From Microcaldota archaeon (GTDB lineage: Archaea > Micrarchaeota > Micrarchaeia > Micrarchaeales > Micrarchaeaceae), in NCBI GenBank assembly GCA_014874295.1, contig JACWAL010000032.1, positions 1 through 52,533 of the forward strand: 52,533 nucleotides of DNA, written 5' to 3'. Below are positions 140 through 47,353 of the stretch, one piece after another (position 1 is the first letter of the stretch; each line of letters begins with the position of its first letter). A program made the position numbers and the translations under genes. The notes under the pieces were generated by a model. The model ran no database searches, was not told where the DNA came from, and worked only from the letters and a program-made list of their open reading frames with translations.

Positions 140-150
140 CAGCATTGCAG
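140..150 (+). repeat. Left direct repeat (target-site duplication)
   Basis: The 11-mer CAGCATTGCAG occurs here and again at 5322-5332, abutting on each side the inverted ends of the 151-5321 element. A perfect direct repeat exactly at both ends is the mark of transposition. An 11-bp duplication fits the length range known for IS4-family elements. Confidence 0.8.
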
Positions 151-213
151 GCTTTGCATTTTTAAGCCATAAATATGAATGTTAAAAATGCATGATTGCT
201 ATTAAAAATGCAA
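151..213. repeat. Left terminal inverted repeat plus two subterminal repeats
   Basis: The outer copy at 151-167 (GCTTTGCATTTTTAAGC) is the inverse of the right-end copies. Two inner copies in the opposite orientation, TTAAAAATGCA at 182-192 and TTAAAAATGCAA at 202-213, share the core TTAAAARTGCA with the right end. They are likely binding sites for the transposase or another element protein. Confidence 0.7.
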
Positions 214-248
214 GAAGGTCTTAATAGCTTATTTATCTATCTTAATCT

Positions 249-941
249 ATGCCAAATTTAGAGAGCTTAACGAAATCTCAAAGAAAGCCGTTAATTGCAT
301 CATTTCTTAAAGAGATGTATTTTGACAGAAGAAGCACCATTTTTAAATGGGCGAGGCTCACAAAACAGACACCACTAATAGAAACAAAATTCTTAGGACA
401 AAACCTCATATCTTTGATAACAGGCATAAGTGGGCGTGGCTCGGCTGCAAGAGGAGATGACCTCAGAGACGGTTCTGAAGTTAAAACCTGTAGTAGATTA
501 GACCAATTGAGCAAATGTAATGAATGCGGAGCGCATGTTACAGCAATAGAAGATAGATGTCCAAATTGTGGCAGTCAGAATATCATGCGAATGACCGATT
601 CGCATTGGATTTTTACTATAAATACTCAAGCCAAAAGAAACAAGATACTTAATGCCACTCCAATGATTTATCTTCTTTTGATAGATGGATACAGACTAAA
701 AAAGAAGGATTTAGCAAAGTTTAGTGTATGGGTCATTAATCCCAAAACGGATACTTTCTTCAGAAATGGATATATTAATGATTATTATCGTAATAATTTT
801 ATAAGAAGAAGAAACGCCAGAGAAAATCCTGCACCCATGAATGTTCACCCACGAAGTCCAAAATTTGGCAGAACAGCAGCACGATTAATCTTTGAGGCAA
901 CTATGACGGATAAAGGAAAGGTAGTAATCTCAAGATTTTAG
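249..941 (+). CDS. Type II restriction endonuclease, PD-(D/E)XK fold with zinc ribbon, MamI-like
   Basis: This 230-aa protein has the catalytic signature D74-G-S-E77-V-K79, preceded by a Gly/Arg-rich stretch (GRGSAARGDDL, 62-72) and followed by a four-Cys zinc ribbon (C90, C93, C104, C107). That arrangement matches what I recall of the MamI restriction endonuclease family, whose prototype recognises GATNNNNATC; the family call is from memory, not from a search. It is expected to cut unmodified DNA. The gene is convergent with the methyltransferase and their stop codons overlap by 4 nt, the usual pairing of a restriction-modification system. The subterminal repeats lie directly upstream, so the element end probably supplies its promoter. 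The actual recognition site is not predictable here. Confidence 0.7.
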   Translation: MPNLESLTKSQRKPLIASFLKEMYFDRRSTIFKWARLTKQTPLIETKFLGQNLISLITGISGRGSAARGDDLRDGSEVKTCSRLDQLSKCNECGAHVTAIEDRCPNCGSQNIMRMTDSHWIFTINTQAKRNKILNATPMIYLLLIDGYRLKKKDLAKFSVWVINPKTDTFFRNGYINDYYRNNFIRRRNARENPAPMNVHPRSPKFGRTAARLIFEATMTDKGKVVISRF

Positions 942-1837
942 ATTTCTATAATCGCCTGCTTAAGCCTTTTTACAGCTTCGTCATAATATTTTTTGTCTAT
1001 TTCAAATCCTATGAAATCCCTTTTAAGTTTTTTGGAAACTACCGCAGTAGTGCCAGAACCCATGAAAGGGTCTAAAACCAACATGCCTTCGTTACTACTT
1101 GCCTTTATTAGTCTCTCTATCAGTTTTGCTGGTTTTTGGGTTGGATGTGCACGCTCCTCTTCATAGAAATCTATATCAGTCCAAATGTCAGTATATCCCA
1201 TTTGCGGATTATATACATACGCAACTTCAGAATAATCTTTCTTGAAATCAAGAACTTTTTCTAACCTTTCCCACATCTCTTTAGTTGGGACTTGCGCAAG
1301 TATATTTTCTCCAGTATATAACGACCAGACGCCACCACCATTAGATTTTACTTTTAGCTTTTCATTTATCTCCTTTGCAGTAAGGCCTAAAGCCTCTTGG
1401 CGTTCTTTAAGGAATTTCTTAATATTGGGTTTATTATTATAGTTAAAGAATAATATGCTCTCTGTGGTGGTTGGGAACATCTTGTAAGTGCTTGTCTTTC
1501 TACCGCTTATGCTTCTTAACCCTTTATCTATGATTATCTGTTGTCTTAGCTCAAAGTTGTGTTTGGTAATTAAGTCCATCATGCCACAGAGCGTCCTGAA
1601 GTAACCAAATAAATAAAAACATGCTGTTGGTTTTGCCACTCTTGAAGCCTGCTCTATCCATTTTTCAGACCACGCATAATAATCAGATTCTAATCTCCAT
1701 TTGAAATCCCACTCTTCATTAATTGCTTTAAAGTATGGAGGGTCGGCAATTATAAGGTCAACTGACCTATCGGGCATCTTTTTCATACCCTCTATGGAAT
1801 CTTGATTGTAGATTTTATTAGTCATCATAATAATCAC
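938..1837 (-). CDS. DNA methyltransferase, beta class (N6-adenine or N4-cytosine)
   Basis: A 299-aa S-adenosylmethionine-dependent DNA methylase. Catalytic motif IV (D32-P-P-Y35) lies near the N-terminus, and the SAM-binding motif DPFMGSGTT with the following FIGFEID lies near the C-terminus. This IV-before-I order defines the beta class, and DPPY favours N6-adenine. It would protect DNA from the neighbouring endonuclease. The start is GTG at 1837, within the GTGA that also contains the transposase stop, so translation is probably coupled to the transposase. An in-frame ATG pair follows a few codons later and could be used instead. No separate promoter is visible. Confidence 0.85.
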   Translation of the reverse strand: MIIMMTNKIYNQDSIEGMKKMPDRSVDLIIADPPYFKAINEEWDFKWRLESDYYAWSEKWIEQASRVAKPTACFYLFGYFRTLCGMMDLITKHNFELRQQIIIDKGLRSISGRKTSTYKMFPTTTESILFFNYNNKPNIKKFLKERQEALGLTAKEINEKLKVKSNGGGVWSLYTGENILAQVPTKEMWERLEKVLDFKKDYSEVAYVYNPQMGYTDIWTDIDFYEEERAHPTQKPAKLIERLIKASSNEGMLVLDPFMGSGTTAVVSKKLKRDFIGFEIDKKYYDEAVKRLKQAIIEI

Positions 1838-3039
1838 GCAACGAAAGGTTTTATACCTAACTCATGCATCTCCTCTATCAAGACCAAGATGTTATATGCT
1901 ATGAACTTGCACAATAGCTCATTAACTTGTGCAGTGTGGTTCTTTGATTTGAGGGTTTCTCCAAGCTTCTTTTTTATCGCAGAGAAGGTAGTTTCTACAT
2001 TGCTTCGTTTGTGGTAGTGTTGCAGAAAGTCCTCTTGGTTGTATTGAAAATAATGGAACATTTTGCGCCAGATGTGGCTATTGCCTTGCGGTTTGCTTAT
2101 AGAGTTCTCTTTGAATGGTATGTAAGGCACGCCGCCAGAGTTATCAATGAAGGCAAGGTTATCTCTGCTCAAATACGCTTTGTCTCCATAGGCTTCTTTT
2201 ACGTTAAAACCATTCTCTTTTGTTTGTTGCATCAATGGTATGAATTGCGGACAATCGGCACCACTTTCATCTGTTATCTCTATCGCAGTCACTATGTTTG
2301 TTTTAACGCCAACGCTGATGTGAGCCTTTAGCCACCTGCGAGACTTCTTTGTTCCATATTTGCCTTCTGCATACGCACCGAAGGAGCGTGTTGCGAAACC
2401 GCTACTATCAACTGCAAAACCACTCTCTACTGCCCTAAGCGGTGCTGATGTTATTGCTATGAGATTATGCAGTATCGGTGTGATATCCTCTCTATTGAGA
2501 AGCACGGACATCGTATTGAAGTGTGGCACGTCTTCTAAGTATCCCTTATCTTTTGCCGCACCGAATAGCGACATAGACCTTCTGCTTGACATCTGCGAAT
2601 AGACCTTCTTTATGGATACATACAACGCTGTGTTAAAGCTAAGGTTAGGTCTTCCATGTGTTTGTATTGGTTTTGGGTCGCTAACCTCTCTGACTAACTC
2701 TGCAAGTAGCTCGTCAAATAGCCTACCCTCTGATGTTTGAGCCTTGTTGTAGATGCTCCAAGCTTGTTGATAAGTGAGTCGTATTCTGTCGTTCTTAATG
2801 CCCTCTTGCGTATGTTGTTCGATATCTAAGAAATAGCGAACTGCATATGCATGTTTGCATGTTGTTTTGTGTAGCTCTGAATCAGGACAGTCGCAAATAA
2901 ATGTGTCGCTAACCTTATAAAAGCCTTGGCCACTCTGTGACTTGACGAGCCACCCTCTCTCAATGGCAGTTATCTGCTTTTTCTGGGCTATTTCATAACC
3001 ACGTTCCTGTCTTTTTTCTAAGACCTGTTTTGTTTCCAT
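1834..3039 (-). CDS. DDE transposase with N-terminal SWIM zinc finger, IS4 type
   Basis: A 401-aa transposase. The N-terminal SWIM finger reads C49-x-C51 then C61-x-H63 and probably binds DNA. The catalytic triad is D211 (AVDSSGF), D286 (YGDKAY) and E349. E349 lies in the exact Y-(2)-R-(3)-E-(6)-K arrangement (Y342, R345, E349, K356) that characterises IS4-family transposases. It should act on the inverted ends at 151 and 5321. It is transcribed leftward from the divergent region 3040-3133, and its stop overlaps the methyltransferase start by 4 nt. The ORF is full length, with no frameshift. A SWIM finger joined to an IS4-like core is less usual. Assignment to another DDE family such as IS5 is possible. 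Confidence 0.85.
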   Translation of the reverse strand: METKQVLEKRQERGYEIAQKKQITAIERGWLVKSQSGQGFYKVSDTFICDCPDSELHKTTCKHAYAVRYFLDIEQHTQEGIKNDRIRLTYQQAWSIYNKAQTSEGRLFDELLAELVREVSDPKPIQTHGRPNLSFNTALYVSIKKVYSQMSSRRSMSLFGAAKDKGYLEDVPHFNTMSVLLNREDITPILHNLIAITSAPLRAVESGFAVDSSGFATRSFGAYAEGKYGTKKSRRWLKAHISVGVKTNIVTAIEITDESGADCPQFIPLMQQTKENGFNVKEAYGDKAYLSRDNLAFIDNSGGVPYIPFKENSISKPQGNSHIWRKMFHYFQYNQEDFLQHYHKRSNVETTFSAIKKKLGETLKSKNHTAQVNELLCKFIAYNILVLIEEMHELGIKPFVA

Positions 3040-3133
3040 ATCCTTACACCGCTAATACTTGTTAATAACTATTAGTGCAGATAGATATATATACCTTTCT
3101 ATTAATAATTATTAATGAAGGTTAAGGGATATT
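3040..3133. promoter_or_regulatory. Divergent promoter with palindromic operators
   Basis: The region lies between the leftward transposase operon and the rightward RHH gene. It contains an A/T tract (GATAGATATATATACC, about 3080-3094) able to serve as TATA box in both directions. A perfect 16-bp palindrome ATTAATAATTATTAAT (3101-3116) and the inverted repeat CTAATA (3052-3057)/TATTAG (3070-3075) flank it. RHH proteins typically bind such sites to repress their own and adjacent promoters, so the 46-aa RHH product is the likely ligand (inference). Confidence 0.55.
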
Positions 3134-3274
3134 ATGCCTAAGAAACTAATCTTGAATGTCGACGAAGAAACATGGAAGGAGGTCTTAAAATACAAAATAG
3201 ACAACGACCTCGATAACAACAACGAAGCAGTCATAAAACTTATAAAATTGGGATTGAAGCGTAAGATAAAGTGA
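3134..3274 (+). CDS. Small ribbon-helix-helix (CopG/Arc-like) regulator
   Basis: A 46-aa basic protein. A short beta strand (KKLILNVDEE) is followed by two helices, the pattern of MetJ/Arc/CopG regulators. An earlier ATG at 3114 runs into a stop after eight codons, so the ATG at 3134 is the usable start. It lies between two palindromes (3101-3116 and 3323-3336), each next to a promoter. This suggests it controls the transposase-methyltransferase operon, itself and the downstream gene pair. No partner toxin is adjacent in the usual overlapping arrangement. Fold assignment is by pattern only. Confidence 0.6.
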   Translation: MPKKLILNVDEETWKEVLKYKIDNDLDNNNEAVIKLIKLGLKRKIK

Positions 3275-3322
3275 GCAGATGCAATCTGGTTCCTAAACGG
3301 AAGATATATATAATCATACGCC

Positions 3323-3347
3323 CCTGTATATACAGGTGGGTATAAAA
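3323..3347 (+). promoter_or_regulatory. Palindromic operator next to a TATA box
   Basis: The perfect 14-bp palindrome CCTGTATATACAGG (3323-3336) is followed within five bases by TATAAAA (3341-3347). Transcription would start near 3368-3372, about 15-20 nt before the start codon of the next gene. The operator overlaps the BRE position, so a bound repressor would block TFB/TBP. Confidence 0.6.
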
Positions 3348-3385
3348 CCGTTATCAACTTGTAGTCTTATGCCCCCCCGTATGGT

Positions 3386-3910
3386 GTGAAAATGATTTTG
3401 GTATCGGATATAGACCTAAAGTCTCCAAAGGAGATAAACGCTTCGAGCAGAGATAGTAAAAAGCAATACTATCTCGAACTACTAAGAAAACTCTTAAAGG
3501 AAAACCCAGACGGATTGACTGCAACTACCATCAGCATAGAATTAAACAAGATAAGTAAGAGGTATAGGTATAACCCCGAAACCATAATGACCTATCTAAA
3601 CCAGCTGGTGGCTATGCGTGAAGCTTATACTGTGCCTTTCGGTAATTCTATGGTCTACAAATATAATGGTAGGCTATTCCACACGGCCAAAGACCGCTTT
3701 TTTGAACTTGAGAACCGCTTTTATTATCTTTATGAAGTTGATAACCCGAATCTGAAAGAGCGGTTTCTGCTAATACAGGAGAGAGAGAAAAATGCTTATG
3801 GGATAGAGAAGGCAATAGGTGGCATAATGATACCAAAAAATAGATTAGAGGATTTCTTGGGTGCTATACGCTTAAGTTTGACGACAGGTGAACATGATGG
3901 AAGTAAGTAA
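3386..3910 (+). CDS. Hypothetical protein with probable winged-helix N-terminal half
   Basis: A 174-aa protein. Residues about 25-100 look like a winged helix-turn-helix: a helix YLELLRKLLKE, then a second helix region TATTISIELNKIS, then a recognition helix NPETIMTYLNQLVAMREAY and a beta wing ending VYKYNGR. The C-terminal part is charged and mostly helical. The start may be GTG 3386 or ATG 3392. It is the first gene of a two-gene operon: the next ORF begins inside its last codons. It is controlled by the operator/TATA at 3323-3347. Not recognised beyond this; it may regulate, or bind DNA with, the downstream protein. Confidence 0.7.
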   Translation: MKMILVSDIDLKSPKEINASSRDSKKQYYLELLRKLLKENPDGLTATTISIELNKISKRYRYNPETIMTYLNQLVAMREAYTVPFGNSMVYKYNGRLFHTAKDRFFELENRFYYLYEVDNPNLKERFLLIQEREKNAYGIEKAIGGIMIPKNRLEDFLGAIRLSLTTGEHDGSK

Positions 3911-5246
3911 AACAATAGTTCGACAAATCTTTGCAGAGGACAGACTGTATAAGAGGGAAGTAATACACCTACAAGAAGCGCAGACTACTTTCAAACTTGG
4001 TAGCATATTCAATAAGATAAAGACAAAGAGAGAGTTAGAAATAGCCCTGAATGCGACTCAACTGGGCACAAACACGGACGGAATTTCGATTCCCATACAT
4101 GTTGCAAGGGAAATGCTTGGAGAGAGGCTGGTAACACGCAATCAACGCAACTTGAGCGGGGGCGTTATGGATTCGGTTTTTGCGAACTTATTAGAGAATA
4201 CACTGATGATAGACCCTGCCATGGATATGTTGGCGGCGTCAAACAGTGTGGAAGCATATACTGATTTCATAAAAGCACTGGAACCGAGGATATCTTTTCC
4301 GAAAAGAATACTCTCATCTTTTGACAAGGACGAAAAAGGCAAGCTTCAGAAGAATAAAGACGCATATAATCTTGCATGGGAAGGATGTATAGAAGACCCA
4401 AAAGAGTATATCAGGCTATGCGAAGCTTATCTTTTCTATCCCTTCAGTTTGGGAAGCCGTATGCCGTCCTTTTTCACAAGAATGATAGAAAGTAAGGTTC
4501 CTGAGTCATTGATTCATGCTGCATTGTTAAGCAAAACTTGCAATTCAATCTGCAAAAGCAACAAGTTACCAAAGATACTCTCACTATCCATCGGTGCGAC
4601 TGCCTTATCCAGCAGGTCTCTTATAAGTGAGTTGATATCTGAAATTATGGATAAAAACGCATTCGGCAACAAGTTTGATTTTGTATCGTTATCAATGCCA
4701 AACAATGACATACACAATAGCTCTGGACAGAGGAGAAATTTCATGCTACTCTATGACATGATAATCAGGCTAAAATTCGAGTATGGCGTAAAAGCCATAA
4801 TCAACGATGTTGATGTAGCATTAGCAGAAACCTGCATGGGTATGGGCTTTAGCTATGCTACGACGCCCTTGGATGGAAATACCAGTATGACTCACTTCCG
4901 AAAATATGATACAATAAACAGCAAATACGGGAAAGCACCAATACCTATCGAATTGGACTGGTTGCCATTCGATATATTTCTTGAGGAATACAACGCCAAT
5001 GGACATCAGTATCCATTTTACTCGGCCACTGCACAATCGCTGAACGGTCACGAAGACCTAAGAGCGGAACTTACCCCAGAAGAATGGACTCGTGCCCGCA
5101 AGACAATCTTCGCAGAAGCAACAGAAGAGCTGAACTCACTGAATAGCAAGGCAGCGATAAACAAGGAGTTCGTAGAGGGGCTGAAAAAGAGGATATGGGA
5201 TTCCAATAAGACCAATTACACAAAACTTCTTACCAAAATAAATTAA
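3894..5246 (+). CDS. Unknown 450-aa cargo protein of the transposon, possible alpha/beta barrel
   Basis: No family recognised. The likely start is ATG 3894, five bases after an AGGTGA ribosome site, which places its 5' end inside the preceding gene and implies coupling. The N-terminal 150 residues are helical. From about residue 220 there is a repeated strand-helix pattern (KILSLSIGA, FDFVSLSMPNND, VKAIINDVD, GFSYATTPLDG), as in a TIM-barrel enzyme, with Asp/Asn residues at strand ends that could bind metal or substrate. There are no membrane segments and no nuclease or helicase motif. As the largest cargo gene of an R-M transposon it may be a further defence or DNA-modification function, but that is inference only. 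Confidence 0.75.
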   Translation: MMEVSKTIVRQIFAEDRLYKREVIHLQEAQTTFKLGSIFNKIKTKRELEIALNATQLGTNTDGISIPIHVAREMLGERLVTRNQRNLSGGVMDSVFANLLENTLMIDPAMDMLAASNSVEAYTDFIKALEPRISFPKRILSSFDKDEKGKLQKNKDAYNLAWEGCIEDPKEYIRLCEAYLFYPFSLGSRMPSFFTRMIESKVPESLIHAALLSKTCNSICKSNKLPKILSLSIGATALSSRSLISELISEIMDKNAFGNKFDFVSLSMPNNDIHNSSGQRRNFMLLYDMIIRLKFEYGVKAIINDVDVALAETCMGMGFSYATTPLDGNTSMTHFRKYDTINSKYGKAPIPIELDWLPFDIFLEEYNANGHQYPFYSATAQSLNGHEDLRAELTPEEWTRARKTIFAEATEELNSLNSKAAINKEFVEGLKKRIWDSNKTNYTKLLTKIN

Positions 5247-5267
5247 TCTCTAACTAAAACCTTCAAC

Positions 5268-5321
5268 ATTAAAAGTGCAAAGCCCTGATTAAAAGTGCAA
5301 ATCATACTTTAAGTGCAAAGC
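5268..5321. repeat. Three tandemly oriented subterminal repeats at the right end
   Basis: ATTAAAAGTGCAAAGC (5268-5283), ATTAAAAGTGCAAAT (5288-5302) and CTTTAAGTGCAAAGC (5307-5321) share TTAARTGCAAA and point toward the right end, spaced by about 20 bp. This is two turns of helix, so proteins bound to them would lie on one DNA face. The outermost copy is the right terminal inverted repeat. Confidence 0.75.
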
Positions 5322-5332
5322 CAGCATTGCAG
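5322..5332 (+). repeat. Right direct repeat (target-site duplication)
   Basis: A second perfect copy of CAGCATTGCAG, immediately outside the right inverted end of the transposon. See the left copy at 140-150. Confidence 0.8.
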
Positions 5333-5375
5333 TAATCATTATATATCTGGAAAGAGACAATCTCGCAGTGATAGC

Positions 5376-5942
5376 ATGGCGATAAAGACGGCTTCTCACA
5401 ATGCGAACACGCGCATAGTCATGGCGGAGAACAGCGTGTCTGGTCTTAAGGGCAAGGAGAGGGCGAACGTCATCGAATCGGTTACGGACCGGCAGTTCGT
5501 GGAAAATGTGTGGCAATCCCACAAGTTCGTTGATGTCCTGCCAGAGGGCATGCCGAAGCAGGCCGGACTATATGAAGTCAATCTTGATCCAGATTCCATA
5601 ACTGCGGTGGACCAGGACGCATTCAACGCGCTCTTCTTCATGAGCAGGATGATTGTCACCGAATCTGCGGTGCGGTTAGCAGCCAATAGCATGCCCGTGA
5701 CCTTCAAGGTCGGATCGCTTGGCGGCACCTCAATCAATGGCAACCTCTTCGCCCTGATACTGTCTGCTGGAGGAATCCCGAACTACGCGGCGGTGCGCAA
5801 GCCGTATGAGCGCGCAGACATACCTCCGATAACGAAGGGTGAGTACATAGTCCTTACCTCCCCCACGGGCGAGGAGACGATAATAAAGCCGTCAAGGGGC
5901 ACTTCTGTGAGAATCCTCACGGAGAGCAAGCTCAGGCGCTGA
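5376..5942 (+). CDS. Hypothetical protein
   Basis: A 188-aa soluble protein with host-like GC-rich codons, unlike the transposon next to it. The start ATG 5376 is chosen because a TATA box (ATTATATAT, about 5339-5347) lies about 30 nt upstream and GTGAT precedes it; longer frames would start inside the transposon repeats. It has a Gly-rich central stretch (KVGSLGGTSINGN) and a beta-rich C-terminus. I do not recognise a family. It is followed after 9 nt by another hypothetical gene, probably in one operon. The transposon insertion lies just upstream of its promoter and may have replaced upstream control sequence. Confidence 0.75.
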   Translation: MAIKTASHNANTRIVMAENSVSGLKGKERANVIESVTDRQFVENVWQSHKFVDVLPEGMPKQAGLYEVNLDPDSITAVDQDAFNALFFMSRMIVTESAVRLAANSMPVTFKVGSLGGTSINGNLFALILSAGGIPNYAAVRKPYERADIPPITKGEYIVLTSPTGEETIIKPSRGTSVRILTESKLRR

Positions 5943-6988: not shown

Positions 6989-7134
6989 AAAGGCAAATGG
7001 TGATACGTGATTACAAACACCCAATAACTCTGGCCTGTGGGTTCGGGTTGGAGAAATCAACATAGTAGTAGGTAGGAGTTTTAAGCCCGCTCTTTATATA
7101 AACCTTTTTCGCGCAAGTTCTAACGGCGATACAG

Positions 7135-7794
7135 TTGAGGAACGAAAGACCAAACCCCGTAGTGGACGCTTGTCTGAAGATGAGCTACGACCAGCCGGAA
7201 GGATGCCTGTTTGTGGTGGAACTTGACAACGTGCGCGGCTACTACAAGCCGTCGAACATGCAGATATTCAGGAAGGGAAACAAGCGTCTTTCTGTGCTGA
7301 ACGAGGCCGACAGCGTAATGATAAAAAAGCTCGCGAGCCTCGACGGCGCCATGATAATAAACAACAAGGGCCAGCTGGTGCAGGTCGGTGCGACGCTCAC
7401 GCATGCGAAGAACTTCCTGAGCCACGGCAAGCGCCATGCATTCGCGCTGGGGACGAGCGCGTACTCCCCAAAGCTTGTCTGCATGCTCGCGAGCGAGGAG
7501 GACAAGCACATACGCACATTCCGCGAGGGCTACCTGATAGCCAGCATAGACGCTGAAACGCACATGCCAGTGGACACGAGAAACAGGGTCGTGGAGCTGC
7601 TCACCTCCAGGGTAACCAGCCTGGTTGTCGCGAGCGGGATAGCGGCCAGCCTGCTGACAGTCAACCCGATACCTGCGATAGTCACGATAAGTGGCACGCA
7701 GGTAATAACATTCGAGGGCTTCGAACGCGTTCGCGAGTTCTTTGCGGGCCGCAGCAGGCGCCAGCAACCCATGAGCGGGAGCCATGCCAGATAA
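7135..7794 (+). CDS. DisA_N-domain protein, probable diadenylate cyclase (DacZ-like)
   Basis: A 219-aa protein whose central part matches the DisA_N (DAC) domain that makes cyclic di-AMP from two ATP. It shows D70-G-A72 in LDGAMIINNKGQLVQVGATL, then GKRHAFALGTSA and a strand CMLASEED, in the right order and spacing. The conserved RHR motif reads R100-H-A102, so one ATP-contacting Arg is lost; activity may be changed. Cyclic di-AMP governs osmolyte and potassium transport in other archaea. The start is TTG 7135, close behind a TATA box (CTTTATATAAACC, about 7091-7103); ATG 7180 is an alternative. It is a single gene, convergent with glutamate dehydrogenase. Confidence 0.75.
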   Translation: MRNERPNPVVDACLKMSYDQPEGCLFVVELDNVRGYYKPSNMQIFRKGNKRLSVLNEADSVMIKKLASLDGAMIINNKGQLVQVGATLTHAKNFLSHGKRHAFALGTSAYSPKLVCMLASEEDKHIRTFREGYLIASIDAETHMPVDTRNRVVELLTSRVTSLVVASGIAASLLTVNPIPAIVTISGTQVITFEGFERVREFFAGRSRRQQPMSGSHAR

Positions 7795-47257: not shown

Positions 47258-47353
47258 CCCGTCGTAGCTCAATGGTAGAGCGGCCGGCTGTAGTTCAGTG
47301 CTGCAAACGCGGCAGATACCGGCAGGTTGGGTGTTCAACTCACCCCGACGGGA
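47258..47353 (+). tRNA. tRNA-Tyr (GTA anticodon) with intron
   Basis: A complete tRNA: acceptor CCCGTCG/CGACGGG with the C1:G72 pair typical of archaeal tyrosine tRNAs, D stem GCTC/GAGC, anticodon stem GCCGG/CCGGC, and T arm GGGTG-TTCAACT-CACCC. The anticodon is GTA at 47290-47292. A 24-nt intron (47294-47317) sits after position 37, the canonical site; it contains a 6-bp hairpin (TGCTGC/GCGGCA) suited to the splicing endonuclease. CCA is not encoded. Confidence 0.96.

Follow-up and report, generated by a model that had tools for sequence, protein, structure and literature searches.

A transposon with a restriction-modification cargo

The stretch of DNA considered here (the window) is an entire contig of 52,533 bp, JACWAL010000032.1, from a Ca. 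Micrarchaeota genome of 0.82 Mb. Near its left edge lies a unit transposon of 5,173 bp (positions 150-5322) which encloses a restriction-modification (R-M) gene pair. The element belongs to a family that very probably consists of IS903-like DDE transposons with a swappable defence cassette, inserted with a stagger of 9 bp at a set position beside an archaeal promoter. Its features are the following:

141-149, no strand: left target-site duplication AGCATTGCA, identical to 5323-5331; 9 bp in 46/46 delimited relatives
150-165, plus strand: left terminal inverted repeat GGCTTTGCATTTTTAA
180-214, no strand: two subterminal inverted copies of the repeat core (TTAAAAATGCA)
249-941, plus strand: MamI-type type II restriction endonuclease (REase), 230 amino acids (aa); PF09567, 124.3 bits, cut-off 25
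938-1837, minus strand: N6/N4 DNA methyltransferase (MTase), 299 aa, DPPY motif then VLDPFMGSG; PF01555, E 1.2e-44, 153 bits
1834-3039, minus strand: DDE transposase, 401 aa, with a SWIM-like zinc finger and DDE_Tnp_1
3134-3274, plus strand: 46-aa protein, putatively ribbon-helix-helix-like, divergent from the transposase
3386-3910, plus strand: 174-aa cargo protein, probably a winged helix
3888-5246, plus strand: 452-aa cargo protein, its start overlapping the 174-aa gene
5268-5301, no strand: two direct subterminal repeat copies (TTAAAAGTGCAAA), 20 bp apart
5307-5322, minus strand: right terminal inverted repeat, reading inward GGCTTTGCACTTAAAG
5323-5331, no strand: right target-site duplication AGCATTGCA

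Both ends read GGCTTTGCA, and the element forms an AT-rich block, with a GC content of 39% compared with 54% for the locus. A first-pass annotation of this DNA had described that block, the inverted ends and the convergent endonuclease/methyltransferase pair. The pair is borne out by the PF09567 and PF01555 matches and the overlapping gene ends, and the central proposal of a complete DDE transposon packaging an R-M system in an archaeon holds. Several details were revised. The ends lie at 150 and 5322 rather than 151 and 5321, and the target duplication measures 9 bp instead of the 11 bp proposed, as it does in every independently delimited relative; the 11-mer was reported because the first G and last C of the element match the flanks by chance. 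The promoter-locked insertion site described below was missing from that account. A genome search with the element's own end sequence, suggested as a route to other copies, found none elsewhere, and the element is single-copy. There is no composite structure, as two flanking insertion sequence (IS) copies and long flanking repeats are absent and a single transposase gene lies inside. The left neighbour gene is not visible because the contig starts 149 bp to the left of the element.

The transposase is best described, from its motifs and profile matches, as IS5/IS903-like with an N-terminal SWIM zinc finger. The catalytic residues D211, D286 and E349 and the Y-R-E-K signature are invariant in a 16-sequence alignment that includes the window, a SWIM-like Cys/His motif occupies residues 49-63, and a Pfam scan gave a DDE_Tnp_1 match of 5e-24. 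Its best model is NCBIfam IS5_2 (NF033579), with 135.1 bits against a cut-off of 140 over residues 139-385. The first-pass annotation was thus right to call the enzyme intact, but its assignment to IS4 was rejected, as NF033592 scores 37.4 bits against a cut-off of 115. PLSDB held only distant (~27%) IS5 relatives, the DDE core being 27% identical over residues 94-388. The element is classed as IS903-like and not as IS903 because, at 5.2 kb and with five further genes, it is not a simple IS. A Pfam scan of the element gave no match to Mutator-type transposases, nor does the element contain TnsB or TnsC domains; it has a single transposase.

A family with 9-bp duplications and subterminal repeats

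Relatives numbered 288 in the scan, and 80 were retained. With an end-finder that tolerated 8/9 matches in the duplication, 46 distinct elements of 2.4-10 kb were delimited, 34 in archaeal and 12 in bacterial hosts, and all 46 have a perfect 9-bp duplication. The same end-finder resolved 0 of 230 shuffled loci. Ends across the 46 elements are of the RGCYTTG type with few one-base variants, and copies of the end core are ~31-fold enriched within 106 bp inside the ends, corresponding to 180-214 and 5268-5301 in the window. Many relatives with 45-69% transposase identity are found within the same order. Across the phylum, relatives occur in 52 of 301 Micrarchaeota genomes, and they are also present in Diapherotrites, Thermoplasmata, methanogens, Nano-, Pace- and Woesearchaeota, Acidobacteria and Chloroflexi.

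Insertion at a fixed distance from archaeal promoters

Immediately to the right of the element in the window lie a predicted promoter and its gene:

5332-5345, plus strand: target promoter, comprising a 6-bp position (gtaatc) of the B recognition element (BRE) and the TATA box ATTATATA at 5338-5345
5376-5942, plus strand: host gene behind the target promoter, 188 aa, with an orthologue in a congener that lacks the transposon

The duplication ends at 5331 and the TATA box starts at 5338, leaving exactly 6 bp between them, and the gene starts at 5376. This spacing recurs in most of the delimited archaeal members of the family. Flanks were scored against TTTAWATA outward from the duplication, the offset being the number of bp after the duplication edge. 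Among the 34 archaeal insertions, 20 flanks match in at least 7/8 positions at offset 6 and none at offset 5 or 7, with a background of 0.0014 such matches per position. With a threshold of at least 6/8, offset 6 collects 27 of the 34 elements, where other offsets average 0.9 (binomial P ~6e-38, a descriptive value as the pattern was first spotted in the same elements). Elements for which a second end was not found provide an independent check, and their TATA peak falls 15 bp (9+6) outside the repeat end. Offsets 4 and 8 gave counts of 8 and 13 (at least 6/8), which repeated TATATA probably produces as shadows in a shifted register.

Aligned archaeal sites read [9-bp duplication] gAAAnn TTTAWATA, that is, a BRE followed by a TATA box. 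In the site matrix, positions +2 to +4 are A and positions +7 to +14 spell TTTAWATA; the far side carries no motif. Element orientation is unbiased (15 vs 12). Open frames often begin 20-60 bp downstream of the site, as expected for archaeal promoters; judged by their N-termini, the downstream genes include those for transcription factor B (TFB; L049), a proteasome subunit (L124), a TFS-like factor (L108) and phosphoglycerate mutase (L136). The archaeal insertion point, as read from these alignments, is fixed to the base relative to the predicted promoter. Searches of open-access literature turned up no archaeal element with such an insertion rule.

We propose that integration guided by the TATA-binding protein (TBP) and TFB, or by the BRE/TATA sequence, is a new archaeal form of promoter-targeted transposition, comparable to that of TnGBS and Ty3. 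The chances are about even that the target is chosen through contact with TBP/TFB. A fuller version of this proposal, which we would as readily accept as doubt, has the transposase docking on the TBP-TFB-promoter complex, so that core promoters would act as self-renewing landing pads on which stacked cassettes build defence islands, a counterpart of Ty3 targeting. It is also possible, though short of an even chance, that TBP and TFB play no part, and that the transposase prefers a bendable AT-rich 8-mer ~7-14 bp from the cut, of which TATA would be the commonest example, or reads BRE/TATA directly. AT preference does peak at the same offset, and what is recognised could be BRE/TATA as a sequence motif; however, the site matrix includes the BRE A-tract besides TATA and is strictly one-sided, and bacterial hosts show no standout offset. 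For TATA at offset 6, all 12 insertions in bacterial hosts stay below 6/8, and in AT content this offset ranks 11th of 200 there (only 11 elements were testable).

The flank beyond the duplication has ATAATNTNTATTATC at this offset in two acidobacterial insertions, L112 and L133, a hint that insertions in bacteria may follow their own target rule.

Empty sites and stacked insertions

An uninterrupted counterpart of an occupied site was found for L049. In the congener G096, the left gene, one copy of the target, gaaaga, TTTAAATA and the TFB gene follow one another without a transposon. For the window element, the orthologue of the right-hand gene and its promoter stand free of the transposon in the congener G001, whose left side is not syntenic. 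Searches for L046 gave no useful congener match, and for L044 only the left flank was recovered.

In 7 of the 46 elements a second family end abuts the duplication, where ~0.04 would be expected, and in the four archaeal cases the abutting end lies on the side away from the promoter. This arrangement fits stacked insertions that would have used a regenerated site repeatedly. The promoter survives insertion, and therefore the host gene would remain usable and the same site would be open to further insertion.

An adjoining pair of family elements is also seen in a Blastocatellia genome (L115:4205-14551), where only the 9-bp duplication that both share (GAACCATAG) and a handful of bases lie between the two; their ends and cargo differ.

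The genes of the window element

The REase match reaches profile position 147 of 183 in PF09567, and alignment with two relatives shows that the GDDLxDxSExK core and four zinc-ribbon cysteines are kept. REase and MTase genes are convergent and overlapping, and the same pairing is found in L046 and L049. The MamI site is GATNNNNATC; at 40% identity, this specificity cannot be transferred to the window pair.

It is unlikely that the window element is a decayed remnant with a dead R-M pair. Its occurrence as a single copy and an REase C-terminus shorter than in both relatives would be in keeping with decay, but the frames of the transposase, MTase and REase are open, the catalytic motifs are intact and the duplication is perfect.

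The 46-aa gene is kept beside the transposase in relatives (52-85% identity); Pfam gave no significant match for its product. The 174-aa and 452-aa pair has no assignable family. One relative of the 174-aa protein, 33% identical, occurs in the Pacearchaeota element L136. The 452-aa protein has almost no relatives, the nearest (75% identical) being a fragment at the edge of contig C20 in another Micrarchaeota genome, G009, with no transposon right end beside it. Fold prediction for this protein was uninformative (pLDDT 36). Searches of the PDB with the REase and the 452-aa protein returned nothing useful, PLSDB plasmids gave no match to either, and among viral contigs neither the 452-aa protein nor the transposase had a close relative.

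Defence bias and exchange of the cargo

Cargo in the family is rich in MTases. The MTase motif occurs in 18 of 98 cargo open reading frames of at least 180 aa and in none of 359 flanking the elements (Fisher's test, 2.4e-13). When Pfam and similarity matches are included, MTases are present in 19 of 34 archaeal and 2 of 12 bacterial elements. The packaging of R-M genes inside a transposon, which the first-pass annotation considered unusual, is therefore not so within this family. Pfam matches reveal a range of systems, including type I HsdM/HsdS modules (L042, L053, L063, L066, L115, L136), Eco57I and IIG-like enzymes (L047, L090, L108), NgoPII with a C5 MTase (L056), an EcoRI-type MTase with GmrSD/HNH (L072) and a Dam-type MTase (L081). 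Several of the type I modules have no visible R subunit, and no HsdR was seen inside L042, L053 or L063. Further examples are AIPR and a SocA-like antitoxin domain beside an MTase (L044), DruA with HerA- and NurA-like genes (L051) and a BrxC/D-like ATPase (L080). In about half of the elements the cargo includes no recognised defence gene, and PADLOC named 1 of 10 unknown cargo proteins (an HD/dGTPase-like match).

An unassigned two-gene cargo, encoding proteins of ~97-173 aa and 362-384 aa, is common to L041:8549-9993, L055:1791-3208 and L181:11057-12725, whose transposases differ. It is a candidate defence or toxin-antitoxin pair.

The MamI REase (PF09567) is found in 4 of 301 Micrarchaeota genomes, and all four copies lie inside transposons of the family; a search for the gene set in relatives lacking the terminal repeats thus found it only within such transposons. 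The carriers sit on three unrelated transposase lineages, and a clade of the window, L046 and L049 was rejected (approximately unbiased test, p=1e-9). Between L046 and L049 the MTase is 81% and the REase 72% identical, while the transposase is only 47% identical. Conversely, the transposases and ends of L042, L044 and L081 are near-identical and their cargo is different. Cargo cassettes thus appear to swap between transposon backbones, and the family would act as a shuttle for defence genes. The idea that R-M genes are passengers caught once by a transposon family with no special tie to defence agrees with the elements whose cargo lacks a recognised defence gene, yet it is very improbable given the MTase enrichment, the presence of MamI on three transposase lineages and the independent occurrence of type I, II and IIG-like modules, of DruA with HerA/NurA-like genes and of AIPR.

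Movement between hosts is illustrated by the 4,975-bp R-M element L049, which is present in G093 and, as an identical copy broken by a later insertion, in G018, a genome from another host family. The duplications differ between the two genomes (AGTTTTACC and GTACAGAGT). Unless binning misled, this pattern indicates recent horizontal movement. A contig of the archaeon UBA446 (L092:1-4975) equals the L049 transposon end to end; the probable explanation is that a repeat collapsed or that the element took a circular form.

A model for promoter-locked defence transposons

The ends, the 9-bp stagger, the fixed place relative to BRE/TATA, the cargo bias and the cargo exchange are read from sequence. 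Together they make it very likely that an IS903-like DDE transposon with a swappable defence cassette inserts at a fixed position beside archaeal promoters. A SWIM finger and subterminal repeat arrays would have enlarged the IS903-like transposon, whose exchangeable cargo in the window would be the MamI-type R-M pair. The transposase may bind the repeated end cores, perhaps guided to its target by TBP/TFB, and would join the ends across a 9-bp stagger at a fixed spot by the promoter, BRE and TATA staying intact on one side. An intact promoter would limit the cost to the host and permit stacking, and the R-M pair could protect or addict the host. Random insertion followed by selection in a compact genome, with survivors in short gaps upstream of genes, is scarcely credible and was rejected. 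Micrarchaeota genomes are indeed small and the examined insertions leave BRE and TATA intact, but intergenic selection could not fix a single-base spacing to TATA such as that between offset 6 and its empty neighbours.

Several points count against this model. All of the evidence was computed from metagenome assemblies, transposition itself was not observed, and promoters were called from sequence and not from mapped transcripts. Seven of the 34 archaeal elements score below 6/8, with L041 and L047 lacking anything TATA-like at the expected place, and in the window the TATA score is 7/8 and the BRE (gtaatc) is weak. An empty-site check of the kind proposed in the first-pass annotation succeeded for L049, but the exact empty site of the window element was not found, as G001 offers the right flank only and G002 nothing near the site. 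The window REase may be inactive, given that its C-terminus is ~75 aa shorter than in both relatives, and misbinning could lie behind some of the apparent cross-family identity.

With base-exact insertion beside a promoter, immunity could spread with little harm to the host gene. The family would be a concrete vehicle for the spread of R-M and other defence genes among small-genomed archaea, and new defence systems may be encoded among its uncharacterised cargo genes. The pattern further suggests that the basal transcription machinery of archaea, or the DNA signature of that machinery, may direct a simple DDE transposase; a natural safe-site integration tool for archaea could follow from this.

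Elsewhere in the window, a tRNA-like gene at 47258-47353 received an odd 4-base anticodon call (ttca); ARAGORN may have misread a tRNA with an intron. For a gene at 7135-7794, downstream of the element, the same genome contains a second copy, 81% identical (window 7096-7766 vs G000:C38:1517-2186).

Comparison with known systems

IS903, of the IS903 group in the IS5 family, resembles the window element and its family in that its ends begin with GGCTTTG and its duplication is 9 bp; IS903B, for instance, has the ends GGCTTTGTTGAATAAATC and a 9-bp duplication (PMC10569121). However, IS903 is a simple IS, whereas the family described here adds an N-terminal SWIM-like region, subterminal repeats, kilobases of defence cargo and promoter-locked insertion.

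The closest mechanistic parallels, by analogy, are TnGBS, ISLre2 and ISKra4, DDE elements whose insertions likewise keep a set distance to the promoter, lying 15-17 bp upstream of the sigma-A -35 box (PMC3942029). Their Mutator-like transposases, bacterial sigma-A promoters and mostly oriented insertion have no equivalent in the present family, which uses BRE/TATA. The likeness is a parallel and not membership because the transposases of those elements are Mutator-like. For TnGBS-type elements, contact with RNA polymerase has been proposed by analogy with the yeast element Ty3, whose integration is set by basal transcription factors (PMC3942029). Ty3 differs in being a eukaryotic retroelement with an integrase that targets Pol III promoters.

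Another comparison is with Tn7-like transposons, which carry swappable defence cargo, most commonly R-M, and arrays of transposase sites at their ends (PMC8649781). These rely on a multi-protein TnsB/C machinery, in contrast to the single DDE transposase of the family here, and Tn7-like defence carriers were not found in archaea in that study (PMC8649781). R-M systems are also moved by insertion sequences, being flanked by or linked to IS copies (PMC3031569). The R-M genes of the window differ from such IS-linked or composite arrangements in lying inside a single unit transposon.

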